Positions 21,803 through 53,449 of a stretch of 64,000 bases of DNA are shown here, in pieces; the first letter of the stretch is position 1; every line of letters begins with the position of its first letter. This stretch comes from Odiellus spinosus (taxonomy: Eukaryota; Arthropoda; Arachnida; Opiliones; Phalangiidae). The notes beneath the pieces were generated by a model. It made no database searches, had not been told where the DNA came from, and worked only from the letters and a program-made list of their open reading frames with translations. The stretch spans positions 8,232,190 to 8,296,189 of the forward strand of contig OY987236.1 in NCBI GenBank assembly GCA_963920705.1. The letters run 5' to 3'. A program made the translations under genes and the position numbers.

Positions 21803-24440
21803 TACAAAATTCCCTTAAAGTAGCAAAATCTACAAAAATTGTCTCTCGTGGTAGCGCGCTTCTTTACGGATTCATCCTTCTTGTTAAATGTCAAACGTCT
21901 CAAACCAACGCGAAGTTCCCTATTCACCCATAAAAACACCAAAAATGTTCTCCTAAAGTTTTCAAGACGAAATTGGGAAACAATTCAAAGTGTCACGCTG
22001 GTATCAGTAAAAAGTAAGGGGGGTGTCTCGCTACTACTCTGAACGTCGCGACTTTTATTATCACCAATATCCTACCGCGAAACCACGCCGCCTAAAGCTT
22101 TACTTTAGTGTCGAACGAAATGAGATCAGAATATAGGTGTTATATAAATGGCCCCTTTTATTAAAGTCTCTGTTCGAACGATTGATGTGAAACTCTAAAA
22201 AGGAAAAAGACTATCTTTACGACCTATCCAGTGAAATTCAGTCTCTAATATCAACACATACATATCCTTGCCTATTCCCGGAGAAAAAACGTAGTAGTAC
22301 CCAAACCCGGTACGAAATGGGGTCTGCGGTCGCTGAGAGAAGAGAGATAGTATTTCCTCGTTCTAACTATGCTAGACCGTGAGCCATCAGACTAGAGATA
22401 TTCGCGGGGATAGATTACCTCATCGAAATGGATTTTTATCAAGTGTCTGTAAGAATATGTTTTACACGGGCAGAGACAGGATGTCCTGGACAGTCCAGTC
22501 TTTTCGGGAAACCACGATTCTGCGTGACCAAAGCCCGAAATAAAATTTATAGGCATAAAGCCACTAAGCCTATAAGGCAAACATCTTTTTATTATAAAAC
22601 TGTACCAGAATGGGTGTGGGACTAAGAAATTCTAATCTTATATCTTTTTATTCTTGCACAAAATTAACCTTGAAAAGCTCAACCCTAGACTTTCAGCTAA
22701 TTTAGCTCTGGCGTATACTGTCTCGAGACTCCTACTATTTTCTATAGTGGCTATAAAAAATTTGCAACTTAATTCTTTAAACCAAAACCACGTAAAAAGA
22801 TTAATATTTGGGCTTTATCTTTAAAATATTCTTTCATTCATTATTTTAAAAATGTAGACCTAAAGTAAAGTGGGGATATCTGATCCAAGGGGGGTGGACC
22901 ATACCCCGTCCAGGAAGGGGTATTGCCCCGTTTGCCAGCCCCATCGGGGGCCCAAGTTACCCAGTCGCAAACGATAAAACCCAAAATAACAGTTACGTGT
23001 TAATTGTTCCCACAAAAAGAAATTGAGGTGTATACCTTTGAACGTGCTGAAATTCAAGACTGTTTCTGACTTTAAAACCTTACATTACAGGTTGTATCAC
23101 TTTGTACTACAGGGACTAAGTCTTAAAGGGGTATTTCGCGCCTTTGATACTGCTGACAACCGATAATGTTTCTTACTATCACACCCTTCTATTCCGGGTA
23201 GAGATTAGAAGGACTGAAGAGACAGTAATGGTCTCTTTTGTATACCGGTAATTAACATAAATTGATTTACAGCTAGGATGGGTGTCGGATGTTCGGGGAG
23301 GCAAACATATATATAGATGTAAGGTGTTATTCAAAGAACTATACATTGACTCCAACATTGGGCGGGTTAACGCCTTTCGCGATAGCAACCGAATTAAGGA
23401 AAAGAATATTTTACGAACCCGCGAGTCTTTAGAAGTTTTAGTAGTGGTTTTATGTTCTTCCAATCAATATCGGAGGAAAGAAACTATAATTAAATAAAGT
23501 ACTTTTCTCAACGAAAAGAGTGATTTCTTTGGATTATAACCCGTGTTTTAAGACCGTTAAAAGGTCAAATTCACAGGACAAAGTGATTTTATGGAAATTA
23601 GAAGGCATAACAGGCGAGGTTTTCTTTGATATTTAAGTGATTTTAAAAATAGATTTGGGTTTAAAAGAATCTGATACGACTTTGCTGGCACTAATCTAAC
23701 ACTTTCCACTAATTGAGATATTAAAATTACCGCATTTGTAAATTTTTACCAAAAATAACATATCTGCAATTTGTTTCTAAGAAAATATTGATTAATACTA
23801 CACTGCATAAATTAAAATTGGCGAAACTAATTTTGACCTAAAATTTTCAAATCATGATCTATAGACTGAGCAGCTTTTGAGCATCAAATTTTATTTACAA
23901 GCATGGTTCAAATATGAGACATGGATCAAGCCTCGGACTCTAAACCATGAGTATCAGTCTCATTAAAATAATTTAAATCATCATGCTTAATAAATTTAAT
24001 GCAGAAAAATTTTAAATTATTTTACATCATCAGTATGGTCTCGTGGCTTTTATAGAGCCAACTGTTGATTCTCGCAAATTCTGGTAGATGATACCTTAGA
24101 CAAATTAACTAAATCCCAGCTAGGTGATGATACGGTTGCTTTCGCGTTGTCTCTTTCGTGAAAGTACTTAATAAAGTCCTACATTTTAGTTTAAACGAGT
24201 TGTAAATAACTTTCCACATTATACGTCATCAAACGTAATAAAATTGATATTTTTGGAATATAAAGCTTGTTACGAAAAAGCCTTCGAAAAATGGTGACGT
24301 CATTTTTATGATAAGAGCTTATTGTAATATAATAATGAATACTAATAGAACCACTTTAAATAAAAATATATAGCCTATCATGACCTCGGGTCAAAGGTCG
24401 CGAACCCCTCGTTAGAACAACAATTTAAAAATTCACTTAC

Positions 24441-24741
24441 AGTGACGTCGTTTTGGTGGAAATGTTGGCCGGAATTGTGGTGAGATTGGCTTGACTACAG
24501 TCGACTTTCAAAGGTTCTGGACATTTGCACATTCGAGGACAGTCGGTGATGGTCGAATCGGTGGTGGTTTCGACGTTTTGGGCCACAGTCGGTTGAACGA
24601 CGGAGTCCATTGGTCTGGTTGGCGAAAGATGGTTCGTTTGCGGAGGTAAAGCGACAGCCGCGAAGCCATTTACCAGTTGAAAGGTCAAAAACAGGCTGAT
24701 CATGTAAAAGTTCAACTTCAGACGACCAGCTGTCGTTAGCC
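24441..24741 (-). CDS. LRR gene exon with signal peptide and LRRNT cap
   Basis: Acceptor TTTTAG, donor CT|GTAAGT. The hydrophobic core is MISLFLTFQLVNGFAAVA. It is followed by a Thr/Pro-rich linker and the cap, whose cysteine spacing (C-x3-C-x-C-x7-C) and LTTIPANI end match LRRNT domains. The first LRR would start in the next exon. Confidence 0.8.
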
Positions 24742-27700
24742 CTAAAATTAAAGTAAGATTAGATAACTATAACATTTAGCCTTTAAACTTAAATTGCTAA
24801 CAAAAGCACCGATTAAAACGTATCCTTTGTAACGGATGTGGTTGACATTATAAAAAAAATATTGATAAATAGATTGAACTACAGGTGCTGGGTCACAAAA
24901 TAACATAAATCAAACCAATATTGTAATGGCAGTTTCTCAAGTATACCCATATTCATTCCTAAGGTAAAAAATAACAGTGTGCCATTACTCTTATATATAG
25001 CCTAAAGCAACGCTCAAAGCTTACAGCACGATTTCGGTATACCCAAAAATAAAACCCATGTTTTTTTCGAAGACCATCCCTTCCTGGTTTCTGAATAGAC
25101 AGAAATCTGTATCATTTGGAAATTTCCATACCTACAAAGTTGATCTATAGCCCTTTATCTCTAAGAGATCCGTGTAGTGGTTAGGTTAAGGCGCGTTGAA
25201 TTATGAAATTGATACAAAATAAGCTAAAGTAGTAAAAAAAATAAAGATGGATTTACTAAAAAGCTATATTTCTTCTCTAGAACTAAGTTTTTGGAAGAGA
25301 GGGAGAAAACGCCTTTGCTTATATACGATTTAAATAACCAGTTTGCATTACTGTCAAAGGTACAATCTAGTTTAAAATAAAGGTCTAGTTAACTAATAGA
25401 TAGCTTTGAACGTGCTGTAAACTTACGTTGTAAGTAACTGCACGTTACTTACGACAGGAAATCTCAACGGGAGTCGTAGACCCTTTTATTTTTTTTTATT
25501 TTTTCCTTTTCATTTTTTACGAAACTCAAGTAAAAATCGTACTAAATAATTCGACCTATATAATAATTTTTTGGTGAAACTGCTGCCTGCCTGGTTATAC
25601 CGCGCGCAGATGGTTAAGCCTTGGCATACATAAAATAACCATAGATATGAAAAATAAGCTAGATCCACTACCCTCACGGCCAACCGGGGGGGAAAACGTC
25701 GGGAACCGAAGGCTGCCATTTGAGGGACATTATGTATTTAGCGCCATCTAGTCAAGAAGGATCAGACACTTTAAAAGGGAAAAACCGCGGGAAATTTGAA
25801 GGGATGAATTCTCGTTTATGAAAGCGCGGGAAACCTAAAGATGCTAATAGGCCATTTGAGTAAAAGCAAAAGCGCGGGAAATTACAAAATGATTAAGCAA
25901 CTTTTTGAGGTTTGAGAGCTTGGGTAAAGGCGAAATAATAGAAGACTAAAAATGGTTAAAAGTTGTGCTTTTTGCAATGTAAACGCAATAAGAGAGTCGG
26001 GAAGGAACAAAAGTGTTCATTTCATAGGTATAAAAAAACATTTTAATATAATCAAAATGTACAATAACCGAGGTGCATTTTTATTATTAAGATTTCTTCT
26101 GGGCAATAGTGAGTTGCAAAGAAAATGGATAGCTGTGGTAGATCGAGACAATTGGAATCCATCTTCATATGATTCAGTGCGTAGTGAACATTTCCAGGAG
26201 GAAGAAATTTATGTTCAAAACGGAAAACACTATCTTAGAGATAATATTGTTCCAACAAAGGTTAATAACTAAAATTAAGTGGTTGATTGTGCAAAAATAA
26301 CGTAAAGGGATGGTGCGGGGAATACTTCTCCGGCTTCGTTGACTATGGCATATCGGATGCTCTTGGGACCTTTTGTGTTTGCTGGTATATGGTTTCCAAT
26401 AACAGCCGAGATAGCCAAACTATTGCGTCACAGGACTTTGGTATTTATGTTAGTAGCTATCAACTGTAGTTGTAAAATACCTCTTGAGTATTTCTTGCTT
26501 GATGGTACACCGGGCGGCTCTTGACGCAGCTTGTGAAAGAATGTTTAGCCAGGATCAACGCCACTGGAGTTAAGTGCGTGCCTTTGGTTAGCGACGGCTT
26601 AAGCAGCAATTTAACTATGGCCAAAACATTGGGAGCAAATTTGGATACAGAATATTTGGACCCCAGTTTCTCAAATCCTGCGAATCCAATGGGACATAGA
26701 ATTTATTTAATCCTTAATGGAGGATTAAAACAGCCATCAAAAAGTGTTTTACAAATCTGCGCTTTGACAGAGTCATACATTCGGCAAAACGTTTCTGTTG
26801 ATATGAAATCAAAAAACATTTCACTATCCATTGAAATTGCTGTTATGCGAAAGTTGGTAAATGCAAATGTATTTAGCGAGCTTCAAGAGCACATGTTCGA
26901 TTTTGAAGTTGGTATCGAACACCATCGTAATAGATTAATGAAAAACATTATTAATTTGTACACAAAGGTTCGCCTTCACAAAATAGCCAAAGATAAGAAC
27001 CTACAATTAAAAAAGCAAGCCATTAGACATAACTATCAAAATTATTTTTGTTTCAAGGGAAATAAAGCCTGTTAAATACCTTTATAATTCCGCTTCCCTG
27101 TAATTTATTTTGTGGATTCTTTTCAACGCCGGTACATAAATCTTCTTTTACTAAAACTAACAAGTAGCATCCTAATAATATTAATTATAACAATAATAAA
27201 AGGAATCAGGAGTCTAAAATAACGTTGCTACCGTTACAACGGAGGCAAGAAATATAAAATTTTCAACAATATCTGTGCTTTCGGCTTTTATAGCAGACGA
27301 AATACGTGTTCGCCATATTTTAGTTTTTATTCGTAGCATCAGATGGCGCGAGCATACACATGAAGGGGGTTGCTCATATGGGGGCGAAAGTGAATTAAAT
27401 AATTCAGTTCTCGCCCGTCAGATGGCGCGGAAAACGGATTGTCCCTCAAATGGCAGCCACCTGGGTCTGACGTACCCCCCCCCCATAGGGCAGTGGGTCT
27501 AGCTTATTTTTCATATGTCTATGAAAATAACTCTCCGATCCTGAATTATTTCCTACTAAAATTACGTGTATATTATATATATACGAAATAATTTATCTTC
27601 AATACCTACATTAAATAGTAAAATGCCATTATGTAACCCTTCTTAATTGGCTGGCCAAGATTAAATATTCATCGTTTTTAAGGGATTGCCAAATACAAAG

Positions 27701-32151: not shown

Positions 32152-32920
32152 GAATTTGAAGATTAAAATAGGCTTAGCGAGTTGAAAATATGAAGATTAA
32201 AATAGGCTTAACGATTTGAAACTATGAAGATGAAAATAGGATTAACGAGTTGAAACTATGAAGATGAAAATAGGCTTAACGAGTTGAAACTATGAAGATG
32301 AAAATAGGCTTAACGAGTTGAAACTATGAAGATGAAAATAGGCTTAACGAGTTGAAACTATGAAGATGAAAATAGGCTTAACGAGTTGAAACTATGAAGA
32401 TGAAAATAGGCTTAACGAGTTGAAACTATGAAGATGAAAATAGGCTTAACGAGTTGAAACTATGAAGATGAAAATAGGCTTAACGAGTTGAAACTATGAA
32501 GATGAAAATAGGCTTAACGAGTTGAAACTATGAAGATGAAAATAGGCTTAACGAGTTGAAACTATGAAGATGAAAATAGGCTTAACGAGTTGAAACTATG
32601 AAGATGAAAATAGGCTTAACGAGTTGAAACTATGAAGATGAAAATAGGCTTAACGAGTTGAAACTATGAAGATGAAAATAGGCTTAACGAGTTGAAACTA
32701 TGAAGATGAAAATAGGCTTAACGAGTTGAAACTATGAAGATGAAAATAGGCTTAACGAGTTGAAACTATGATGAAAATAGGCTTAGCGACTTGAAAATGC
32801 TAAGATGAAAATAAGCTTAGCGACTTGAAAATACGAAGTTGAAAATAGGCTTAACGACTTGAAAATATGAAGATGAAAGTAGGCTTAGCGAATTGAAAAT
32901 ATGAAGATTAGAATAGATTA
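32152..32920. repeat. 34-bp minisatellite, about 22 copies
   Basis: Period of 34 bp, containing AGGCTTAACGAGTTGAAACT then ATGAAGATGAAAAT. The core (about 32228-32768, some 16 units) is almost identical copy to copy; the outer units diverge (TTAGCG for TTAACG), and one unit near 32769 is 31 bp. Confidence 0.95.
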
Positions 32921-40769: not shown

Positions 40770-41012
40770 TTAAATTTTGGTTGGGATTTCCGTTTCAACG
40801 TCAATCTTTTTTTCAAGATCGGGATAGGCGGGCGGAGGGATATCGTCTTGAAGGGCAACTTTTTTCACTCCATTCATTTCATTTTGGATGGATTCGTACT
40901 CGGATTCTACAGTTTGAATTGCCACTCCCGGATTTTTCTTGACAGTGTCGTATGGATTAGGCTTAGCCTGATTTTTTCCAGTGATGAAGCCATATAGAGG
41001 GCTGTTAAACGC
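40770..41012 (-). CDS. Exon 22: terminal coding exon with NPxY and PPxY motifs
   Basis: Residues 1964-2043 plus a TAA stop at 40770-40772. Found by reading past the donor of exon 21: the acceptor is ATTCTAG and the frame stays open for 80 codons. It contains KPNPYDTV (NPxY-type), EYESI (Tyr-x-x-hydrophobic) and IPPPAYPDL (PPxY). These motifs usually bind endocytic adaptors or PTB domains and WW-domain proteins such as Nedd4-type ligases. The 3' UTR is not defined; possible AATAAA signals on the minus strand lie near 40038-40043 and 39821-39826. Confidence 0.78.
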   Translation of the reverse strand, partial: AFNSPLYGFITGKNQAKPNPYDTVKKNPGVAIQTVESEYESIQNEMNGVKKVALQDDIPPPAYPDLEKKIDVETEIPTKI

Positions 41013-44000
41013 CTAGAATTTTGGATTTGATGATGATAAAACTTAGATTTCTCGAAATATAGCTTCCTTCGATGATTCGCGATTTATTTTCAAAACATTA
41101 CATGCCACGAGACGTTGCGTAAGAATCAATTAGATTCTCCCTCAAGAGTGCGAGTGTGCAGATTTACAGGCTCAACATAACAATGCTATGCCCGTGTTCC
41201 ACAAAATAGGCTTAAATAAGCGCTTTACATGCTTCAACATTTAGTCTGGACTTGGAAAGCACCGAGCGTGCATACAGTATAGGCTTAGAAAATCTAGACA
41301 AGGCTTAACATGCTGTTCGTAGCATATTGTATAAGTTCCGATATATTAGACCCGATTTAAGTTGGATATGCGTAGCGTATAGTAAAAAACCTGAAGACCC
41401 GATTTAAGTTGGACATGCGTAGCATATAGTAAAAAAACCGATTTGATACCCAATCAACTTATAAACATACCCATGCCTTGACATTTTCCCCACCGATTCA
41501 AGCAACATTCCACAAATTTGCCAAGTTTTAAAATTACCAAGCTTCCATGATAATTATATCGCGGTCACAAGTTCACAACCAAACTGTCGCAAGCTTAAAA
41601 TCGTTCTTAATTAATCATGCATACCTCTAAGTATATTGAAATAACATTTACAGCCAGCCAGACAAAAATAAAACGCTATTACACACAATAAGAATGAAAG
41701 TGGACTCACCAAACTAACTAAAGAGTTCCTAGGTGTTTCTCCATTTTTACCTCGATAATACTGCAAAAGTAAGAGTACAATTACTTCAAAATTAAGCCTT
41801 GGCAACCAACGATGAATCGAATAAATTAAATTCAGCCTTAAAACTTACCGAAACAAGGGCGATGAGAATGAGGACTACCAAGATGGTGATAACCAAAGTA
41901 ATGGCGACTAGAGTGGCGGTCCCGTCACGCGAGATGGCCGTAATGGCCATATGAGTATCCGGAATTCGATTGTCGAAGACTTCAACGTCGGGAGAGACGT
42001 AGTCGGATATGTAGTAGAAATGAGATCGTCGATAATCGGCCACCATGCTGCCGTCGTTCATCTGTAGGAGCAATCCTCCGGTCTTGACCATTTCCTCCAA
42101 TCGGAAAGCCGAGTCAACCTTGTTGTCGCCAATCAGCGAGAAGGTTACTTTCGTGCTTCGAGGAGATGGTTCGACGGTCACATCATCATCGACGCGAGCG
42201 TCCAAGCGTTTCAGTAAATGTTGCGAAAGGCTAAACGATAATAATTATTAATTTAATTAACTAATATTTTATAACAGTAATTCGTAAACTAAAATATAAA
42301 ACTAACCTTTTTATGGATTCAGCAGAGTTGGTTTTCAACGGTGACCCTTCGTGTCTGTAGGTCAAAGTTATATCTACACTCTTGATGGGCACGAACTTGC
42401 ACTTTTCATTTTGCCTTGGAAATGTGTTGGATTCGGGTAGTTGAATTCCAGCTTCATCGACGCACCAACATTCTTCCTTTTTCGTATTTTTGTCTTTCAT
42501 ACACTGGGTGGGTCGGAACTTGCCCTCCAAATCACATTCTGGCACGTACTCATGCTGCAAAGCGACGTCGTTGGATCGTAATGATCGCATATGTTCGCAA
42601 CGCGTCTCTGATGTAACTAGAGGAATAACTATATCCGGTGCCGAGGTGGGTGGTTGACAATCCACATTCTGTCCAGCTCTATCGACGAAAACGGGAGTAC
42701 AAGTGCAAGGATCTACGGTGCAAACGGCTTCGGCATTGCCCGGACAACTGACATTAGCGCAAATGCGAGAGCGGCTGCAAGGTTCGAGTTCTTGAGTGAC
42801 TGAAGCCCATGGGCAGTATACCATGTCTACAATGAAATAAGTTTAAAAATTAACGAAGTTCATGTTTAATGCTTAAATGGTACATTCTATAGTTGTTTAT
42901 CGTACCAGGACATCTCGCTTGACATTCCTCCTTCGAAGCAAAATTGTTATCATTCCCACCACATCCTCCGTACTGGAATTCGACGCATTCGTGACTATGT
43001 TTGTTGTAAAACCAACGAGATATTTGAGCGCGGCACATTCCAATTTCCATAAGTTGTTCGCAAACTGGTTCTGAGTAAATTAGATTTATATTTAATTTTA
43101 AATATAAATTATTGTAATTAGTCTTAACAAAAACAAAGGGACTTACTCGGTAATACGCATTCTTTGTGACATTCATCCATGCTTAAGAAATTATTGTCAT
43201 TTCCGCCACAACCGGTGTACGAAAACTCTTCACAGCGTTGACTATCTTGGTTGAAAAAGAATCTGGACATAGCCGCTCCGCAATGTCCTTCTTTCACCTT
43301 CTGCGAGCATTTATCTTCGCAGTTAACTTTCTCGCCATTTTCGTCGACAAAATGAACGGCGCAATGATTACAAGGATCCGAAACGCAGATGGCTTCCGGA
43401 TGTTGGGGACAATAAGCTTCGATGCATTCTTCTCGGCAAACTTTAGGGTTAAAATCCGAATCGGGGCAGATGGGTCCCAAAGAATGTCTTTCAACAACGG
43501 TACCGTTACGGCTACACTTAACGATTCCTTTGGTCAAGGAATCGTGGATAGGGCGTCCGTACTTATCGACGCACCAAGCTAAGTCTCCTTGTCTTTGTAC
43601 AACAGCATATCCTCCTTCTTTGGAACAATTTGGCATGTGTACCTTCATCAGATTTTGACTTCCGGCTCCATCAAACGCACCAGATAACCCGGATTCTGCC
43701 ACTTCCTTTTCGGTGACGTCAAAATTTTCGAAAGAGTCCATTCTGGGCTCGACGCATTCCATACCGCAATCGCCCATACAACATTTTTGGTTACCTTCGC
43801 ATTGGGAATCGGTAAGACACTTATGGCGACATCTCCAACTCATGCTGCGAATCAAGCTCCAGAAGGAAGGCGGCGGGCACATGCCTGGTTTCGTTATCAT
43901 GGCTTCGTGAACTTCGTCAGCGACCATGCGCGCCATGATGCTACTAAAAGGGTTGACTACTTGAGGCACTCGAACAGAAAGGCTACCGAATCGGGGACCG

Positions 44001-47000
44001 ATGACTACAGCTATTCGAGAAGTTACTGTAGAAGAAAGAAAAATTTCTCTGTCAGCTTAAACATGTAGAAACGAAGGTAAATTCTTTTAAAGAGCCCCCT
44101 AAAATAATTATCATTATGCGCCAAGTTGTGATCTCCATAGTTGAAATTACACTTTTTTAAAGGTGAACGTTATGTGATAGTTGACACAAGTTCAATTAAA
44201 CTCGGGATATACTTAACTACTGGGACCGATTTGCAGTTTTTGCAGTTCATTTGGTTTAAATATAATATCTGAAAAATATTTTCGAGCTAACCTGAAATGG
44301 GTCCTTGGTGTCGAACGTGATCATGATCGCTATCGGAAGACATTTGATCGGAAAGAGCACCACTTAGGAATCGTCCTAAGAGCGTTCTGGACACGACGAC
44401 CGGCATGGGTGGTGGAGGTGGTGGGGGATACGCTGGAGGCACAACGGAATCTACAGATTCCCCTTCTTCGATATAACTTTCGATAGAAGCCGAAGCTCGT
44501 CGAAATCCCTTGATTTTATTCACCCATGCTGAGCTGTCCAAAACGTCTTGGACTTCGCCCATGCACGCCGTCAAGTCCTTGGAACAGGAAACTGGTTGGT
44601 TACGATTGTCGAAGAATTGAGCTTTACAACCACCACACGGATCTACGCGACAAGTGGCGTTAGGGTAAGAAACGCAACTGGCGCGGGAACAAGTGTCATC
44701 AGGACATTGATAAACTGGTAGACCATTGGCGCAGACTTAAAAAAAGTAAAGAAAACAAGATTAGGTTTTATAGGAAAGACGTAATAAAGGGTTGATTTAA
44801 AATTAATTTAAAACAATATATAATGTAATTACTTGGAATTTCGCCTAAATTACGTCCTCCACGTGCAGAACAGGCTGGAGTACCGCGGATAACGCTACCC
44901 GGTTGTTGGTCACCTTCTTTATTGACGCACCAACAAAGTCCTAGTGCATCCAAACATTGCACTGTTTCCCAATCACCACTCTTTTTGTCGCATCTAATTA
45001 AAAATTAATAATTGTCGGCGAAATATGAATAAAAGGCCTTTGAAATAAATATTAAATCAGGGAACAAAACCTACTTTGGCAAGAAGACGATTTTGTTAAC
45101 ATTCTTTTTAATCTTCATATTTCTTTCGCGGATTCTTTCACATTCAGACATTACTGACAAAAAAGAACGACAATAAATACGAGCAATTCAATTAACGAGC
45201 TTTAGTGACTAAGCCGTGGTGTTATAACTAGTCGGGGAAAGGGGACAATAGATAAACTTGCGAATGTATTTCATTCTCAAAATATTCCCCGGAGGAAAGG
45301 GAGATGTAATTAATAATAGAACTATAAGACCCGTCTCGAGGGATTTCTAGTTTGGCACAAGTTCAAAATTTTAAACAAAGGAAGTCTTTATCTTTCTTTA
45401 ATAGTCTTTTCCATCAACCTAAAAAATCGTCAGAGTCACTTGGGAATAAGTTAAGAATCGGGACAAAGACTCTCTACTGATTCAAAGCGGTTCGTCTTTT
45501 AACCGACTGGACAAGTAGTTTAAAAAGACTGCGAATAGGGTCGCTCGGAGTAAATTAAGTAATGGGACAAAAGGTTTATTAAAGTTTTACGAGATTCTCT
45601 CTTAGACAAAGAAGTATTTTAAAATGACTGAAAAGTAATCAGAGTTACTTGGGAGTAAGTTTAGTATTGGGGAAAAGGCACTTTAAGATTTTAAGTAATT
45701 GGCATCTTACCTGGGCAAGTTTTTTCGCAATCCGCCTTAGAGTCGAACCGATTTAGGTTACCATTACAACCTCCGTATAGAAATTCTTCGCAACTATTTT
45801 TCCTGGCGTTGAAATACCAGCGATGCTTAGCCGCTTTGCACATTCCGATTTCTTGAGGCTGATAACAAACATCTCCTGCGAGTACCAAACGTGTTATTCC
45901 ATGGAGAAAGATAAAGTGGCGTACTTAAGACTTGAAAGAATGCCAGCGATAGACAATAGTTTCCCGTGGATTTAAAAATACTTTTTTTAAGGGTTAATTT
46001 GTAACTTTACACGTTGATAAGAATTATCTTTGCTCAATCTACACTAAATTAACCCGGATTAGAAACTGTTTGTAATTCTTAAATCGTGTACACGTAATGA
46101 GACAAATAGATAAAAACTTGTACTGTACCAGACTTGTCTTCATGGAAATTGTGTGGCCTTCAATTAAGTTTAAGTTTTATAATATTAAAACGTATTTACT
46201 TGGTTTGGGACAACAGACTGAAAATTGTCCAAGAGGACTTAAGTGGCACTTATGGGAAGATGGACAACTATCGCTGGACGGTCCGCAAGTAGCCGGTTCG
46301 CCCGTTGTGGCGTTCAACAAAGGTTCGCCTTCTGGACAAGGATTGGACATGTCAGGCATACCTATAATATCGTGATAAAAATATTAAATTCGGTATGTGT
46401 CCGATTTTTAACGATGCCCTTGGATACTTACATAAAGCGATAGGAGGACATGGACCAGAGGCACAGTTTACTTGGATGGCGCGACACTGTTCGCCAGGTT
46501 TTTCACATTTTACCTTCTGTTAACGAAGTGTTTAATTAATTAAAAATATTTAATAATTAATATAAGCAAATAATTGAACTTACGTCGCAAGGATCTCTAC
46601 AGGCGCAAGTAAAACAACTGTTACCGCCCATCTGGAGACCATTGGGGCAATTCAAGTCACAGTCTGCTGGGTAGCATTTTTCCGGTTCTTTAAATTAAGA
46701 GTAGAGTTAAGCCTTGGCTTTAGTGGTACTAAAGAAAGATTGTTTCACGGTGCACAACTTACGGGTACAGTCCATAGTTCCATTCGACAATCCTCTCGTT
46801 CCTGGTAATTCAAACCCGTTTTCGTCGACACACCAGCATGTTCCACTTACGGGATCGCATTGGGTCGGTTTGAACGCTCCAGTTTCGGCATTACAACCAG
46901 GAATGTACGTTTGAGAAGCTGGAATACCGTTTTCTCGCGCTCGGTGTTCAGCGACCAGTTTCTCGTGAAGACAAGCGGTCAGGAGCAAAGGCTTCATGCA

Positions 47001-50000
47001 TTGAGTACCACATCCGTTCGAGCAACACTTGAGATCGTCGGCGCATTCGGTATCCGTCGTGCAATCGAATTCGCAACTATCGTGTTTGGCAGGGATCAAG
47101 TAAGGGCATTGTCCAGCTTTACCAGTAATGGCAGAGTCCTGGTTAGACGTTTCTTCACGTTCCAAGGCGATGACGTCATTAGTGTTTGGTTGAAGAACTA
47201 ATTAAGACATTATCTTATTGACCAGTACTTACTGAAATTACGCAAATTAAATAATAAAATGGAAATAACTCACTGATTCTAGGGCAGCAGATGCCACGTG
47301 GTTCAGAATCTTGCAAGGCAACGCACATATGAGAGTCGGGGCATTGTTGGTAAGGTGCCATTGGTTCGCAAGGAACTGGGACGTTGTTTTCTTGGTACAT
47401 GAGAGGGTTGCCCACTGGGCAGGACGGATGGTTTGTGGTCTGGCCTTGGACGCGACTCTCCACCTGTTTCGGGACGCATTGAGGGACGTGAGGACACCAA
47501 GCGCTGTCGCAAGGAGCTTGTACCATTTGGCATTCGCGATTTTCGCCGCATTTCGCGTGCTACAATTTAATAAATAGTTAAAATTCCCTTACCCCCGAGG
47601 CGAAATTATGTCGAGAGACTTACGTTACAGGGGTTTCTGCATTCGCAGTAGGGACAACCTTCATCGTCCATTTCGAATCCGTAATCGCAACCCAATCGAC
47701 ATAGAAGACCCAGACAACTTCTCAAGGCACGAACTATCAGTGAAAAAATGCGCAAACTTCACCGATGCTGAACGAAACTCAGGCGTATATTAAAAATGTG
47801 TAGTTTACCTTCTCGGCAATCGACCTTGTTTTTGCGAGCTCTGGTGTTGATCAATTCACTACCAAACTCGTCAACACACCAACATTCTGTGTCTTCGGAA
47901 TCAACTTCGTTGCATTGAATGGGTTCGTACGAACCATCTTCTCGACAAGTGGGTACTGGTAGGGCTAAACTAGCGTTATTGTGACCTCGTTCCAATTTTT
48001 TGCTCATGTCTCTAAGATACTCGCACACTGTAATAAGTATTAGGTACTTAAAAGGGGTGCCCATAAATTCATCTTGGGAGCTAATTTACATTTCCAAGTT
48101 TGTCTATTAACTTAACTCGCGTGAAAAGAAATTAACTGAATAATAAGACGTTTACTTACTGGTTGGCAATCTTGGTGGTCTGGGATGAGCGCAAACTGAT
48201 CCGCACTTCTCTTCTTGACAACATTTCATTCCTTCCTGGCAATCATTATCGCTGGTACAAGTCATATTCTCGCAGGAATTCGGTGGAGGGACGAAATTTG
48301 GACATTGAGGTTCTCGAACTCCGTTATCTTCGGCGACAACCGCGGCGTTATTTAACGTTGGGCAACAAATACCGGTATCTTGGTCCGCTTGAACTTCGCA
48401 TTTAAAATTGAAGGGACAGTTAACATTTGGTCCGCAAGTAACGGCGTCTCCTGTCACCACGTCGACTAGAGGACTTCCTTTGGCGCACGTTGGTCTGTTT
48501 TCTCTCATGCATGTGGCGATGGCTGGGCAATTACCACTGACACAAGGGTCTTCCTTCATAACGACGCATTTGGCGTCTTGTGGACAAGTGATATCCTCGC
48601 AAGGCTCCAAGCATTCGCATTTTGTGCATCCATCGTCATCGCCTTTAAACCCGAAAGAGCAGTTCAGGTTGCAATGGATTTCAGCGCATACGGAACTGCC
48701 GCTGGAACGGGCTTCGGGCGTACAGAAAACGGTATGGGATGGTCCCAAAGATCCTTTCATTTGAGCGCCAACTTCATCAACGCACCAACAAAGACGACCG
48801 TTCGTGGTACATTGTCTTGGGATAAATTCTCCTTCCTCTGAACATTGAGGAATGTACGCTTCGTAACTAGGATTGCTCGTGATAAGCAGTTCAACAACCA
48901 TCTTCTGTTGCTGGCATACTATTTAGACCAAAAGCGTCATTATATTTTGTTTAATTTCGGATATATAAAGTAAAAAAACCTACGGGTAGTGTTTCCTGGT
49001 TTCAAACAGACTTTTCCGCATTTCTGGGATTCACAACATTTGCTGGGACCACCGCAGTCCATGTCAAGTTTACAAGACTTTTGCTGATCGCATTGCAAGT
49101 CGGTGGTCTCTTCGTCTTTGGGGCATTGTCCGGGTTTATCTGCCAATACGAAGGTTTTCGTTAATTCATTTTCGCTTCCAAGCTTATGATTAATTATCAA
49201 TTCTTACCTAATAAGGGACAGCAGACACCGTAGTCGTTACCACGCATTACGTTACAAACGAAATTGGCAGGACACTGGGGTTTGTTGACTTCGACACCGC
49301 ACAGAAAGGGCTTACCGCGATCGGGCGAGTTCAAAGGTTCACCAAAATCGCACTGGTCTTCGAGGCTTCTAGGACGTTTGCATTTGGCAAATGGAGGGCA
49401 TGTTAAATCGGCACAGATGGCTACTTCCACGCTACATTCCTGGCCACCGGGGCAGGTCTTGTCCTTTTAACGAAGAATTTAAAAAAATCATTAAAAAAGG
49501 CATTTTTGCAAAGTTTGTCAAAAAAAAAGAAAGGGTAAATAAAAAAACTTAATTCACGATCAAGCTCTTGGCTCAATCGTACCTTTTTTACAATTTTTTT
49601 AACCCCGATCGAAATAATAAGCCTATTTTCGGTTTATCACCTTGCAAGGGTTTCTACATTCGCATAGAGGACATCCATTTTCATCTAGTTCGAATCCGTA
49701 AGGACATAACATTCTGCAAACGTGACCAGCGCACTTGTCCGGGGACGAGCAATTAACGAGTTCCAAGGATCTGGCTCTCGTTCCGGGTCGTTCGAAACCT
49801 AGTTCGTCGACACACCAGCATTTTCCATCGTCTCGATTACACTGAACCGGTTCGAATTCACCGCTCTCCCTGCACTTTGGCGTGTAAATTTCTCCGTAGG
49901 ATTCTCGCTGGAACACAGCTCTGAGTTGCTGACAGCCTGGAAAGATTCAATAACTCAATTATAACCAGCCTCTCTTAAAGAGGAACTCCTCGTACTGTAC

Positions 50001-51063
50001 ATTTCGCCCAAGTGGTCTATCCACTTAATGCCACCGAATGGAGGTATAGAGCTATACTTAGATTCAAAGGAAGGATAAGTGGATTTTCAATACGTTCAAG
50101 ACTAGGGACCACAAGGAAACTTTAAAGGAATGGTTTATGCTAAGAAATGTTTCATTGGAATTATAAAAGGTATGTTTTTGCCCTGCTGTAGCCTCGCTAA
50201 ACTTTCTATTGGCCGCCCTTTCAATAGAAAACATTTTATTAGTGTCATAGTTGATGAACGTTTGTCTGTCAAAGTATAGCCTAAATGGAAGGCGCTCTAG
50301 GTAACATTTTAATTGTGATTAACCCTTTTGAATGGTGATGCAAGACAAATGGTTTCGTTTAAAAAAAATGTAGTGCAATTCCTTTTGAAAACCATCAGTA
50401 AGATGATGTCAGGGAACAGTTTTGGAAGTGTTGAATACTCCAGCTGTTTCTGACTATAGTTCCACGTATGATTTTATTCGCGTTTTGAGATTCAAAAAGA
50501 CCCTTGCTCGAATGTGTATTTTTTGGTAAGCTTATCGCTTACGATCCCTACTTTTAGCATCATTCTGTTTAATTCCGCGAATACGTTTAGAAACTTTACC
50601 ACCAGGAAGTTAGGGATGAATAATAACTTAGTTTATTCAAAAATCGCTTCTATTCCTGGGATTTTTTTTTTTTTTTTTTTCTTTCACGCTTTGAAACTTT
50701 ACCTGTTTTAAATTTTAAATCCATTCGCTCTAAAAGCGCCGCTACTAAAAGTTAGATTACTCTCATTTATGTGAATACTTTGAACCAATGAAGATAAAGG
50801 CGGCGTTTTTCAACATAAAATATGGAGTTGAGAATTCCAATGATAAAAACATACATTTTTAACGTTAAGTGAATTAGAAAGATGACCTATCACATTTGAG
50901 ATCAAGACCGCGCTGCTTAATGGGTTTGGGACTCTCCTGATTGTACAATTATCCTAAACCCAAAGTCCAGAAATAATATTAAAAACTAGCATATTGTCAA
51001 AACTATTGATATAAAGGTGCATTCCATAAAGTGCAAAAACAAGAAATTGGAGTCTAGCGAACG

Positions 51064-51094
<31 letters not shown>

Positions 51095-53449
51095 GTAGCA
51101 ATTGTTTCGTTTGGAAACTGGCTTCATGGTGATAGCCTCGCAAAATATTCAGTTTTCCACTTGGAAAAAAATTGCCTATCATCTTAGGATTTTAACAATT
51201 TCTCCCACCTACGAATTGCCACCTTTACAATTCAGATTGCCAAATCGGGTTGTTTTCTTGCTACGAATCGTTATTCAAATTTTAAGTCAGTAGAACATTG
51301 GTTCCATTGGCTCTAATCTTTTAGACAAGACCCTAGGAAAAAAATCATTGCACAAAAAAATCTTCCTTTGTCGTAAAAATTTACATCAAAATGGTTTAAA
51401 AAAAAGATGGGTTGCTGCTTAGGTAAGAGTTTTCCCTTATACTATACGATAAAAGGTTGCGTTAAAATCATTGTTGTATAAAGAAATGGCAGTCTGGGTA
51501 AAATCTCCCATAGGTTCAAGAACAATCAAAGAGTGGAAACTGCTAACATTCTATGGGTATAGTCCCACTAGCTAATAATAACGCATTTTATGCTCAAATG
51601 CTGAGCCTAAAATAGCGGAATAAGATATGGAATGGATTTTTTATCTAACTCGCTTGTCTCAGCTTTCTTATGGGAATCTGAAGTCCATGTGAATGCTCAG
51701 AATTTAACGAATTAACTTTCAATAATTTTCTTCTAAAATATATTTCAATTGGTTTTGAAAACAAGTATGCAGTACGTAGCCTTTACTAAAACTTCTCATT
51801 AGTATTGGGCTTATATAACAAATCCACTGGGTGCTCTCGAGAGCAAGTTTCAATGGGCGACTCGAGCGCTCGCGAGTAAAGTTTATTTTCCTTTTTCGAG
51901 AGACCAACTAATTGAGAGCACTTTTTTCACCGATTTGATTGGGGGATGCTCTAGTCAGAGCACTCCGAGAGTGGTCCAGTGGAATTCGCAGAGTGCTCTG
52001 AATCTTTTAAAAATTTAATTGATCTTGCCCTCACTCGCTATAGAGCAACTGGCAGTGGGCATTTAAAAAATATCACATCCCCCAATCAAATCAGTGAATA
52101 AAAGTTGGTTCAATAGGTTGCTATCACGAAAATGCCCCGACTCGCCCAATGGAATATAAAACTTGTTCTCGAAGTTTCTAGAGCATCCAGTAAAATTAAG
52201 TATTAATTCACTATACAGCAATTGAAATTGCGTAACTATTTTTGGGGGGTTTCGTGTGGACTTAAAGATATTTTTTTTAATATCCTCTTGGGATGAAGGG
52301 CGAGTTTTTGAGGAGCAAACTTAGAAGCCTGAGTGCGAGATGGAGAGAAAGAGGCCCGGACTAAGGAGGGGGATAAGCCTCTCGTCATCAGTCTTAATAC
52401 GAACAGGATCGATAAGTGATATTGGTTCGAGATGATGTCAAAATCAGTTTAGAGGAGATCCAAATGACAGTTTTAAGATTACATATACGTTCATATCGGG
52501 CCAAGGGATTTTTTTCTTATCGTAATGCTTTCTAGAAAGGCTCATAAAATCGTTTCTAATATCGATTTAGCCCTGTAATTTACTCTCGGATTTATCTTTT
52601 ATTTTCACGGGAAAGGAACAAATCCGTTCGGGGTTTTTAATACACTCATGATCGCCGTCATTTTCCTATCTATATTTCATACTAAATTTAATACCACGTA
52701 ATATTCCGTCTTGGGATTTCCTATATACTTTACAAACGGCTTTAGAATAAATCAATATGCCTAGAGAAACAATCGTTTTTAAAATAATTGATTTTAGTGA
52801 TGCCAATTTTAGAAGGCTTTTGGAATTGATTTTCATTTTTCGAAGCTGAAACGTCAATTTACCTGGAGTAGTCTGAAAATAGGTTGACATTTTTTAATAA
52901 ATTTTACCTGGGGGATTTTGAATTTTCTTGACAGTTTCGATAATTAAAGGTTTATTTTAACGTTGATGAGTATTGAACGCAACAGTTGTTTGCGAAGTTA
53001 GTCACAAAAATCAATTCTAGACTTTCTTTATTGAAAAAACATAATTTTAAGGATAATCCCCAAAAGCAAACATTTGAATTATGAAGGGATGTCAACTAAT
53101 TATTAATCCCAACTGGATATGTTCCTTGAAATTATACGCACTGAAAAGTACGGGAGAACTACTTTAATCACTGAAATATAACATTGTACCAATCCGCCTA
53201 CTTCAGCCTTCGTTTTTAATCTTGGACGAAGAAATGTTCGGAAAATAAATGAAATAACGATTATGGGCTCACCAGAAACAAGGGGAGTGGTGCAAACTTG
53301 AGCGCACCCGTTGGAACAACACTTTTGCACGTCTTCGCAATCGCCGTCCGTGCTGCACTCGGACACGGCAGCCGTACATTCCTGTTTCGAGTAGATAGCG
53401 TCCGGAGAAATGGTTGGGCAACGGCCCTCCTTGACGATTCCGGGCACTG
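40770..53449 (-). CDS. Multidomain WAP/thyroglobulin-1/antistasin/lustrin/Kunitz transmembrane protein (22 exons, 5' end missing)
   Basis: Predicted single-pass membrane protein with a very long ectodomain of protease-inhibitor-type modules; a role in controlling extracellular or surface proteases is inferred from the families. Exons from 5' to 3' are the 22 CDS entries below. Every intron is GT-AG and every junction keeps phase, giving 2,043 codons with no internal stop. Order: (WAP, Tg1, antistasin, short Cys module, lustrin-type) four times; Kunitz, Tg1, unassigned Cys module, Pro-rich linker, WAP, degenerate Tg1, Cys module, two Kunitz, Cys module, Tg1, SEA-like region, TM helix (about residues 1923-1945), then about 98 cytoplasmic residues with NPxY and PPxY motifs. 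I count 5 WAP, 7 Tg1, 4 antistasin, 4 lustrin-type and 3 Kunitz domains. Residues are numbered from the first complete codon of the first exon found. I did not recognise a named orthologue. Confidence 0.9.
41710..41760 (-). CDS. Exon 21: membrane-proximal cytoplasmic tail
   Basis: Residues 1947-1963, a 51-bp exon encoding YYRGKNGETPRNSLVSL. Its basic residues just after the helix fit the cytoplasmic side. The acceptor is TTTTGCAG and the donor TTG|GTGAGT; both junctions are phase 0. Confidence 0.75.
41849..42230 (-). CDS. Exon 20: SEA-like juxtamembrane region and transmembrane helix
   Basis: Residues 1819-1946. A cysteine-free alpha/beta-looking segment (LSQHLLKRLDARV, KVTFSLIGDNKVDSAFRLEE) has the size and placement of a SEA domain just outside a membrane. 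This is inferred; I see no clear GSVVV-type cleavage motif. A hydrophobic helix (TLVAITLVITILVVLILIAL) follows. The acceptor is CGTTTAG and the donor TCG|GTAAGT. Confidence 0.85.
42307..42826 (-). CDS. Exon 19: unassigned Cys module C, Tg1 domain 7, start of SEA-like region
   Basis: Residues 1646-1818. Third copy of the unassigned module (AVCTVDPCTC, VFVDRAGQNVDC), then a Tg1 domain (CEHMRSL, PECDLEG, TQCMKDK, ECWCVDEAG). It then enters a cysteine-free region (VDITLTYRHEG) that resembles the first strand of a SEA fold. The donor is AG|GTTAGT, phase 2. Confidence 0.88.
42906..43070 (-). CDS. Exon 18: Kunitz domain 3
   Basis: Residues 1591-1645. A complete Kunitz domain in a 165-bp phase 1-1 exon. 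CEQLMEIGMCRA puts arginine at P1, and FQYGGCGGNDNNF is the core. The same core in exon 17 suggests a recent duplication of adjacent Kunitz domains. Confidence 0.93.
43147..44025 (-). CDS. Exon 17: WAP 5, degenerate Tg1 6, Cys module B, Kunitz 2
   Basis: Residues 1298-1590, the largest exon. A non-cysteine segment (TSRIAVVIGPRFG) precedes an eight-cysteine WAP (KCCMGDCGMEC). Next is a Tg1-like stretch (MPNCSKEGG, LAWCVDKYG) that has lost several cysteines, then the second unassigned module (CVSDPCNHC, HFVDENGEKVNC), then a Kunitz domain. In that Kunitz, EGHCGAA puts glycine at P1. The donor is A|GTAAGT. Confidence 0.92.
44292..44735 (-). CDS. Exon 16: unassigned Cys module A plus Pro-rich linker
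   Basis: Residues 1150-1297. Begins with the first copy of an unassigned module (VSYPNATCRVDPCGGC ... FFDNRNQPVSC). It is followed by a long linker with ACMGEVQ, an acidic stretch and a run of seven prolines (PPAYPPPPPPPM). The linker lacks the dense cysteines of the rest of the ectodomain. The donor is G|GTTAGC. Confidence 0.85.
44833..44993 (-). CDS. Exon 15: remainder of thyroglobulin type-1 domain 5
   Basis: Residues 1096-1149. Continues the Tg1 domain with CDKKSGDWETVQC, LCWCVNKEG and a final TPAC. The acceptor is TAATTAG (phase 2) and the donor A|GTAATT. Confidence 0.86.
45075..45153 (-). CDS. Exon 14: first part of thyroglobulin type-1 domain 5
   Basis: Residues 1070-1095. Encodes SECERIRERN and leads to FLPK at the donor AA|GTAGGT. 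It supplies the first Tg1 cysteine. The intron inside the domain is in phase 2, unlike the other Tg1 copies, which have no internal intron. Confidence 0.82.
45427..45680. repeat. Three degenerate ~107-bp direct repeats in intron 13
   Basis: The words CAGAGTCACTTGGGAATAAG and ATCGGGACAAAG recur near 45430, 45540 (shortened) and 45637 (CAGAGTTACTTGGGAGTAAG, ATTGGGGAAAAG). Confidence 0.6.
45711..45875 (-). CDS. Exon 13: Kunitz domain 1
   Basis: Residues 1015-1069. A full six-cysteine Kunitz/BPTI domain encoded by one phase 1-1 exon. The segment CYQPQEIGMCKA puts lysine at the predicted P1 site, a trypsin-type residue in this family. FLYGGCNGNLNRF is the conserved core. Confidence 0.93.
46200..46361 (-). 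CDS. Exon 12: lustrin-type domain 4
   Basis: Residues 961-1014. A lustrin-type cysteine-rich repeat: CPEGEPLLN, GEPATCGP, CPSSHKC, FSVCCPKP. It closes the fourth super-repeat. The acceptor is ATTATAG and the donor A|GTAAAT. Confidence 0.88.
46432..46516 (-). CDS. Exon 11: short Cys module 4
   Basis: Residues 933-960. This exon of about 28 codons is the short Cys module alone: KVKCEKPGEQC ... NCASGPCPPIALC. It shows that the module is a separate exon unit between antistasin and lustrin. The acceptor is GTTAACAG and the donor T|GTAAGT. Confidence 0.85.
46584..46687 (-). CDS. Exon 10: antistasin-like domain 4
   Basis: Residues 898-932. Encodes KCYPADCDLNCPNG, then SCFTCACRDPCD. It lacks the acidic stretch seen in the other antistasin copies but keeps the cysteine spacing. 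The acceptor is AATTTAAAG and the donor GAC|GTAAGT, phase 0. Confidence 0.85.
46763..47197 (-). CDS. Exon 9: WAP domain 4 plus thyroglobulin type-1 domain 4
   Basis: Residues 753-897. A linker leads into an eight-cysteine WAP (GQCPYL ... KCCSNGCGTQC) and then a Tg1 domain (ACLHEKL, PGCNAETG, TQCDPVSG, TCWCVDENG). The intron usually found between WAP and Tg1 is absent. The donor is C|GTAAGT. Confidence 0.9.
47274..47559 (-). CDS. Exon 8: short Cys module 3 plus lustrin-type domain 3
   Basis: Residues 658-752. Starts HAKCGENREC (short Cys module, ending WCPHVPQC), then a linker and a lustrin-type repeat: CPVGNPL, PVPCEP, CPDSHMC, GICCP. The acceptor is AATTGTAG in phase 0 and the donor A|GTGAGT. 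Confidence 0.88.
47624..47733 (-). CDS. Exon 7: antistasin-like domain 3
   Basis: Residues 621-657. Read directly from the sequence because it is short. It encodes SCLGLLCRLGC, then YGFEMDDEGCPYCECRNPC, closely matching the antistasin modules in exons 2 and 5. The acceptor is CACTGATAG (phase 1) and the donor AAC|GTAAGT (phase 0). Confidence 0.88.
47809..48027 (-). CDS. Exon 6: thyroglobulin type-1 domain 3
   Basis: Residues 548-620. One Tg1 domain: CEYLRDM, PTCREDGSY, IQCNE, ECWCVDEFG and VDC give all six cysteines. The acceptor is TTATTACAG and the donor G|GTAAAC, phase 1 on both sides. Confidence 0.9.
48160..48918 (-). CDS. Exon 5: Tg1 domain 2, antistasin 2, Cys module 2, lustrin-type 2, WAP 3
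   Basis: Residues 295-547. Five modules sit in one uninterrupted exon: Tg1 (CQQQKMVV ... LCWCVDE), antistasin (GFKGDDDGCTKCECLEPC), short Cys module (ITCPQDAKC ... NCPAIATC), lustrin-type (CAKGSPL ... TGICCP) and an eight-cysteine WAP (PQCPNF ... GSVCAHP). Other super-repeat copies have introns at these boundaries. The donor is A|GTAAGT. Confidence 0.92.
48984..49139 (-). CDS. Exon 4: WAP domain 2
   Basis: Residues 243-294. This exon is exactly one WAP domain with eight cysteines, from GQCPKDE to SKCCESQKC and GKVCLKP. Both boundaries are phase 1, typical of a shuffled module. The acceptor is TTGGCAG and the donor C|GTAGGT. Confidence 0.9.
49208..49463 (-). CDS. Exon 3: short Cys module 1 plus lustrin-type domain 1
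   Basis: Residues 158-242. It opens with a short five-cysteine module (TCPGGQEC ... TCPPFAKC) and then a lustrin-type cysteine-rich repeat: CDFGEPL, GKPFLCG, CPANFVC and a terminal GVCCP. The acceptor is TTAAAAG and the donor G|GTAAGA. Confidence 0.87.
49641..49936 (-). CDS. Exon 2: thyroglobulin type-1 domain 1 plus antistasin-like domain 1
   Basis: Residues 59-157. The Tg1 domain starts CQQLRAVF and carries the diagnostic QC and CWCVDE motifs. It is followed by an antistasin-like module with C-x3-C, PYGFELDENGC and CECRNPC. The acceptor is TTTCCAG and the donor AAG|GTGATA, phase 0. Confidence 0.9.
50661..50681. repeat. Poly-T tract in intron 1
   Basis: About 21 consecutive T; a poly-A tract of about 26 lies 0.4 kb away at 51064-51090 in the same intron. 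Confidence 0.8.
51064..51090. repeat. Poly-A tract in intron 1
   Basis: About 26 consecutive A following GTCTAGCGAACG. Confidence 0.8.
51823..52192. mobile_element. Composite inverted-repeat element in intron 1
   Basis: The outer arms resemble each other inverted (CCACTGGGTGCTCT and GCAAGTTT with ATGGGCGA on the left; their inverse on the right). A tighter inner inverted repeat, 20 of 21 bases identical, lies at 51928-51948 and 52076-52096 (GATTTGATTGGGGGATG). No clear target duplication was found. Confidence 0.55.
53273..53449 (-). CDS. Exon 1 found: WAP domain 1
   Basis: Residues 1-58. A complete eight-cysteine WAP four-disulfide core, including the paired QKCC and a final QVC, spans about residues 8-53. 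The donor is G|GTGAGC. The acceptor is a tandem TAG-CAG, so the exon may start at 53449 or 53446; both keep phase 1. A leader exon must lie further 5' (higher coordinates). Confidence 0.85.

Follow-up and report, generated by a model that had tools for sequence, protein, structure and literature searches.

The combination of protease-inhibitor modules considered here has already been published in arthropods, in a family of proteins that is known but little studied, and no functional study of such mixed inhibitors stood out in the open-licence literature. In Drosophila, CG5639 probably has a similar mix of modules. Published gene lists, in the excerpts concerned, place it among the peptidase inhibitors and pair it with SLPI, a WAP protein, as the equivalent in the fly, and one such list calls it a serpin. 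Among the closest described systems, two come from moths. In PxSPI44 of Plutella xylostella a single protein brings together WAP, antistasin, Kunitz, Tg1 (there termed TY) and WR1 modules; going by the listing in the available portion of that survey, it has three WAP, two antistasin and one Kunitz modules, compared to five, four and three in the protein described below (PMC5309989). BmSPI56 of Bombyx mori is described in the excerpted text as “mixed-type”, with Kunitz, antistasin and WAP units together with a “TSR” cysteine-protease inhibitor unit, which we read as a thyroglobulin repeat; it has one Kunitz, three antistasin and two WAP units, a likeness that concerns the description rather than sequence or module order (PMC3278429). 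Proteins termed WAP-ATN thyropins are reported, in the part of the source considered, to be common to insects, crustaceans and mites (PMC3407033).

Surveys of single inhibitor families give a more scattered picture. The accessible table of one of them lists a Daphnia pulex sequence of the WAP family with five WAP domains, the same number as here and a likeness in WAP count alone, and that table holds no WAP sequence for Ixodes or Tetranychus (PMC5673224). The WAP/antistasin/Kunitz class is reported as absent from one wasp in the excerpt of the study concerned (PMC5691223). For the salivary glands of a predatory bug, the available part of the survey lists a Kunitz/WAP protein and a separate antistasin protein, with no WAP/antistasin/Kunitz mix found there (PMC10545863). 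Scans of non-eukaryotic genome-contig and viral-contig collections with the present sequence returned no relatives.

In the window, the whole 64,000-nucleotide stretch of Odiellus spinosus DNA that was analysed, WAP, antistasin, Kunitz and Tg1 modules all occur in one predicted protein, as they do in PxSPI44, BmSPI56 and the WAP-ATN thyropins. The locus is probably one large gene, whose product would be a type I membrane protein of the mixed protease-inhibitor type in which an ancestral block of modules has been duplicated to four copies. Exons were located by eye and by frame matching at AG/GT borders, from the DNA letters rather than from RNA. When joined in frame, twelve minus-strand exons (E1-E12, 53446..46200) give 1014 residues arranged as four blocks of five modules, and every internal border shows both an AG acceptor and a GT donor; residue 1 (Val) depends on an assumed first base. 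Block 4 finishes at position 46200, and the model runs on past it through ten additional in-frame exons (45875..40770, minus strand) to a stop codon at 40770. The whole model has 22 exons in a single frame with AG/GT borders, and the residues found number 2043, of which 194 are cysteines. The exons, with the evidence for each, are as follows:

53273..53446, minus strand: E1, WAP of block 1, phase 1 in and phase 1 out, beginning mid-codon (splice sites; Pfam WAP, 39.9 bits)
49641..49936, minus strand: E2, Tg1 and antistasin of block 1, antistasin P1 Arg (splice sites; Pfam; alignment to antistasin 1skz)
49208..49463, minus strand: E3, short Cys module and lustrin-type module of block 1 (splice sites; Pfam)
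48984..49139, minus strand: E4, WAP of block 2 (splice sites; Pfam)
48160..48918, minus strand: E5, Tg1, antistasin, short Cys and lustrin modules of block 2 and WAP of block 3 in one unbroken exon (splice sites; Pfam)
47809..48027, minus strand: E6, Tg1 of block 3 (splice sites; Pfam)
47624..47733, minus strand: E7, antistasin of block 3, P1 Arg (splice sites; Pfam)
47274..47559, minus strand: E8, short Cys module and lustrin-type module of block 3, the latter unmatched by Pfam and with six Cys present (splice sites; cysteine pattern)
46763..47197, minus strand: E9, spacer, WAP and Tg1 of block 4 (splice sites; Pfam)
46584..46687, minus strand: E10, antistasin of block 4, under the Pfam cut-off, P1 Asp (splice sites; Pfam)
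46432..46516, minus strand: E11, short Cys module of block 4 (splice sites)
46200..46361, minus strand: E12, lustrin-type module of block 4 (splice sites; Pfam)
45711..45875, minus strand: E13, Kunitz domain 1, P1 Lys (splice sites; Pfam)
44833..45153, minus strand: E14 (45153..45075) and E15 (44993..44833), fifth Tg1, split by a phase-2 intron (splice sites; Pfam)
44292..44735, minus strand: E16, cysteine module X1 and a linker with PPAYPPPPPPP (splice sites)
43147..44025, minus strand: E17, WAP5 (Arg at the P1 position), degenerate Tg1-6, module X2 and Kunitz 2 (P1 Gly) (splice sites; Pfam)
42906..43070, minus strand: E18, Kunitz domain 3, P1 Arg (splice sites; Pfam)
42307..42826, minus strand: E19, module X3, seventh Tg1 and start of the juxtamembrane region (splice sites)
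41849..42230, minus strand: E20, juxtamembrane region and predicted transmembrane helix (splice sites; structure prediction)
40770..41760, minus strand: E21 (41760..41710) and E22 (41012..40770), putative cytoplasmic tail with PPAY at residue 2023, and stop codon (splice sites)

The array of four blocks is a real, well-ordered coding sequence. The initial annotation had described a fourfold succession of WAP, Tg1, antistasin, short Cys and lustrin-type modules, and exon joining together with Pfam bears this out; its statement that none is missing or swapped also holds, all five modules being present in the same order in each of the four blocks. Pfam recognises the WAP and the Tg1 modules in every block, and the antistasin module in every block as well, with the block 4 copy lying below the curated cut-off (19.9 versus 21.2 bits). 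Lustrin-type modules are matched in three of the four blocks, and the block 3 copy, which yields no Pfam match even at E up to 1, has its six cysteines in place. The short module also has six cysteines in all four copies, none of which scores above any Pfam cut-off; its best match is to an EGF model, for copy 2, at an E of 1.5e-4, which is below the cut-off of that model. Outside the shared cysteines, identity between blocks ranges by module from 12 to 57%, and the block copies are therefore old.

Beyond the array, E13-E22 encode, in order, Kunitz 1, Tg1-5, X1, the PPAYPPPPPPP linker, WAP5, Tg1-6, X2, Kunitz 2, Kunitz 3, X3 and Tg1-7, after which come the juxtamembrane stretch, the transmembrane helix and the tail carrying PPAY. 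Over the whole model Pfam matches the WAP fold in five copies out of five, and the Kunitz fold is found in all three copies both by Pfam and by the count of six cysteines, with Kunitz 1 and 2 matching boophilin, TFPI, bikunin and SmCI. The QC and CWCV motifs of Tg1 are kept in six copies of seven, the sixth being degenerate through loss of cysteines. Module X occurs as three Cys-rich copies between 42657 and 44733 (minus strand) with a DPC..C motif region common to all, and no copy has a Pfam match above cut-off. The transmembrane helix is predicted with a pLDDT of 96-97 over its last two stretches of ten and mostly under 50 over the rest, the juxtamembrane region being a low-confidence structure prediction. 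The predicted helix and tail, both lying outside the region in which the array was first noticed, support the earlier suggestion of a surface protein.

Candidate reactive sites were assigned by reading the P1 residues by eye from sequence and alignments. The P1 residues of Kunitz 1, 2 and 3 are Lys, Gly and Arg (Lys or Arg in two of three), and those of the antistasin modules in blocks 1-4 are Arg, Asn, Arg and Asp (two of four, with six cysteines in all four). Alignment of antistasin module 1 with antistasin, gigastasin and hirustasin covers their loop region, where the reactive site of these inhibitors lies. For WAP modules we presume that P1 directly follows the second cysteine, as in elafin and SLPI; this residue is Thr, Asp, Glu, Glu and Arg in WAP1 to WAP5 (one of five). 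The second cysteine aligns with that of nawaprin and not with those of elafin or SLPI, and the assigned WAP position thus rests on cysteine order. Taken together, five of the 12 Kunitz, antistasin and WAP loops have Lys or Arg at P1, and within the four blocks alone Arg is found in two of the eight WAP and antistasin loops. Tg1 domains, for their part, are often not protease inhibitors, and motifs such as QC and CWCV are no guide to whether a copy inhibits.

The introns at the block borders number 12, of which the three between antistasin and short Cys modules are in phase 0 and the other nine in phase 1. Three border positions recur in three blocks each: the intron between WAP and Tg1 (blocks 1, 2 and 3) lies in the codon preceding the first Tg1 cysteine, at a common residue and phase; that between antistasin and short Cys (blocks 1, 3 and 4) lies at the same residue after CR(N/D)PCx; and that between lustrin and the next module (blocks 1, 3 and 4) follows CCPxx each time, again with residue and phase in common. 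The Tg1/antistasin intron is found in blocks 3 and 4 at positions one residue apart, and the short Cys/lustrin intron in block 4 only, while E5 spans four successive borders, from block 2 up to the WAP of block 3, with no intron. When introns were placed at random, at least one slot common to three blocks appeared in 30 of 200000 runs, compared to the three such slots observed. Under a stricter null, which confines introns to module borders and keeps the observed mix of phases, all phases agreed in 10529 of 200000 draws, and the phase evidence is therefore moderate under that null. The exons flanking the phase-0 border are of phase 1-0 and 0-1, so that copying either of them singly would break the frame, and we infer that the antistasin and short Cys modules moved together.

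The trees are less telling. The initial annotation had proposed that a whole five-module cassette was duplicated, in which case all five module types should share one branching order. We compared the four copies from this one sequence, from which a single branching order cannot come. The best likelihood tree joins blocks 1 with 3 and 2 with 4 for WAP and Tg1, 1 with 4 and 2 with 3 for antistasin, and 1 with 2 and 3 with 4 for the short Cys and lustrin modules; the AU test at 0.05 rejects no tree for any module, and the concatenated modules prefer the first of these groupings with a RELL support of 0.56. The proposal of cassette duplication is thus favoured by the intron positions and phases repeated at the borders and finds no such agreement in the module trees, whose best orders differ without significance. 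Because these positions and phases recur, duplication of whole blocks followed by loss of some introns is the best reading, and parallel gain of introns at the same residues is less likely than block duplication with intron loss. Read this way, the gene structure records how a mixed-inhibitor protein grew: a block of five different modules was copied whole, and introns still mark many of the old module borders, if not the four within E5.

Alternatively, each module type might have been amplified independently, the common order arising by repeated shuffling of phase 1-1 exons. Phase 1 is the usual phase for exon shuffling and the predominant one at these borders, and the disagreement among the single-module trees would fit such a history. 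However, shuffling would have had to produce five modules in identical order four times and to reuse three border positions exactly, one of them a phase-0 border that does not allow shuffling of one exon at a time, and we regard such a history as very improbable. A different question is whether block duplication took place within one gene of the full extent modelled. E1 starts inside a codon, in phase 1, and the exon for a signal peptide is therefore missing from the model; the 10.5 kb of the window that lie upstream of E1 yielded no confident candidate for it. A scan for hydrophobic starts covered the five introns longer than 200 bases and found them in three, E1/E2, E12/E13 and E16/E17. The locus could hold two adjacent genes (E1-E12 and E13-E22): from E2 to E13 no intron is longer than E12/E13 (324 bp), which coincides with a change in module order and contains a signal-peptide-like start (46143-46092, minus strand). 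Yet both phase-fitting GT donors of this start create a stop codon when joined to E13, the E12/E13 junction is the same CCPxx phase-1 border as at the ends of blocks 1 and 3, and PxSPI44 and BmSPI56, in the excerpts of their descriptions, have Kunitz together with WAP and antistasin units in one protein (PMC5309989; PMC3278429). Similarly, the main transcript could start in the 3.3 kb first intron, where the stretch 52836-52734 (minus strand) is the most hydrophobic start of all; as it also fits the phase, an alternative first exon at 52836 that skips WAP1 is possible, though the donors after it are weak, the best-listed ones scoring 2 of 6. AT-rich introns frequently hold hydrophobic starts, and the one in E16/E17, inside the gene, is of similar strength, so such pieces arise easily; those at 52836 and 46143 are possibly alternative first exons and possibly chance. 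Two genes, or a main transcript lacking WAP1, seem improbable overall, and one single gene is the best reading of a model predicted from DNA.

How such a protein might act is suggested by the distribution of its modules. An ancestral WAP-Tg1-antistasin-short Cys-lustrin block would have been duplicated as a unit to give four tandem copies, placed ahead of the Kunitz/Tg1/WAP region, the transmembrane helix and a short tail, and the product would sit at the cell surface on a long, rigid, protease-resistant stalk. It would carry a few working serine-protease inhibitor sites, namely the two Kunitz and two antistasin loops with Lys or Arg and perhaps WAP5, while the remaining modules would serve mainly as spacers or as surfaces binding matrix or cysteine proteases. 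PPAY in the tail, which we take to be a contact for a WW-domain ligase of the Nedd4 type, could link the protein to such a ubiquitin ligase for turnover. A surface stalk with a few trypsin-type sites, its other modules being spacers or binding faces, appears likeliest, but it has to be weighed against a purely structural role, in the extracellular matrix or in cuticle attachment, with inhibitor folds as spacers and no inhibition. This is compatible with the gene model and agrees with the Thr, Asp, Glu and Glu in the block WAPs, the Asn and Asp in antistasins 2 and 4, the Gly in Kunitz 2 and the cysteines lost from Tg1-6. It accounts less well for the Lys or Arg kept, together with six cysteines each, in Kunitz 1 and 3 and antistasin 1 and 3; moreover, the available portions of insect surveys read other P1 residues as inhibitory too, Gly as elastase-type (PMC3278429) and Thr as directed against subtilisin and fungal proteases (PMC5309989), so that the loops with these residues may inhibit as well. 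We would give the structural role a real, if minor, chance. The same residues leave a smaller one, making it rather unlikely, for a membrane-tethered multi-headed inhibitor in which competent antistasin loops (Arg, blocks 1 and 3) alternate with disabled ones (Asn and Asp, blocks 2 and 4); if true, active sites would recur every two blocks along the surface stalk, with non-inhibitory WAP folds as spacers. The suggestion in the initial annotation that the protein acts on several protease classes fares accordingly: the Lys or Arg in two of three Kunitz and two of four antistasin loops speak for some inhibition, whereas most WAP and antistasin loops of the blocks lack the usual P1 residue, and multi-class inhibition by the four blocks is weakly supported by the sequence.

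Several other elements lie in the window. Within the 3.3 kb intron between E1 and E2, at about 51940-52100, an inverted pair with TTTGATTGGGGGATG was seen by eye and is perhaps a small transposable element. Two open stretches at 25928-27072 (plus strand) match the THAP (31 bits), TNP-like RNase H and THAP9 C-terminal models, which identifies them, on these model matches, as putative remains of a P-element/THAP9-like transposase. An open stretch at 24440-24766 (minus strand) combines a hydrophobic N-terminus with a match to a leucine-rich-repeat N-terminal domain (33.6 bits); it is probably the initial exon of an LRR protein that is either secreted or placed at the surface. Tandem arrays are found at 32157-32916, with a 34-base unit in 22.4 copies and 95% matches, and at 3766-4021, with a 40-base unit in 6.5 copies.
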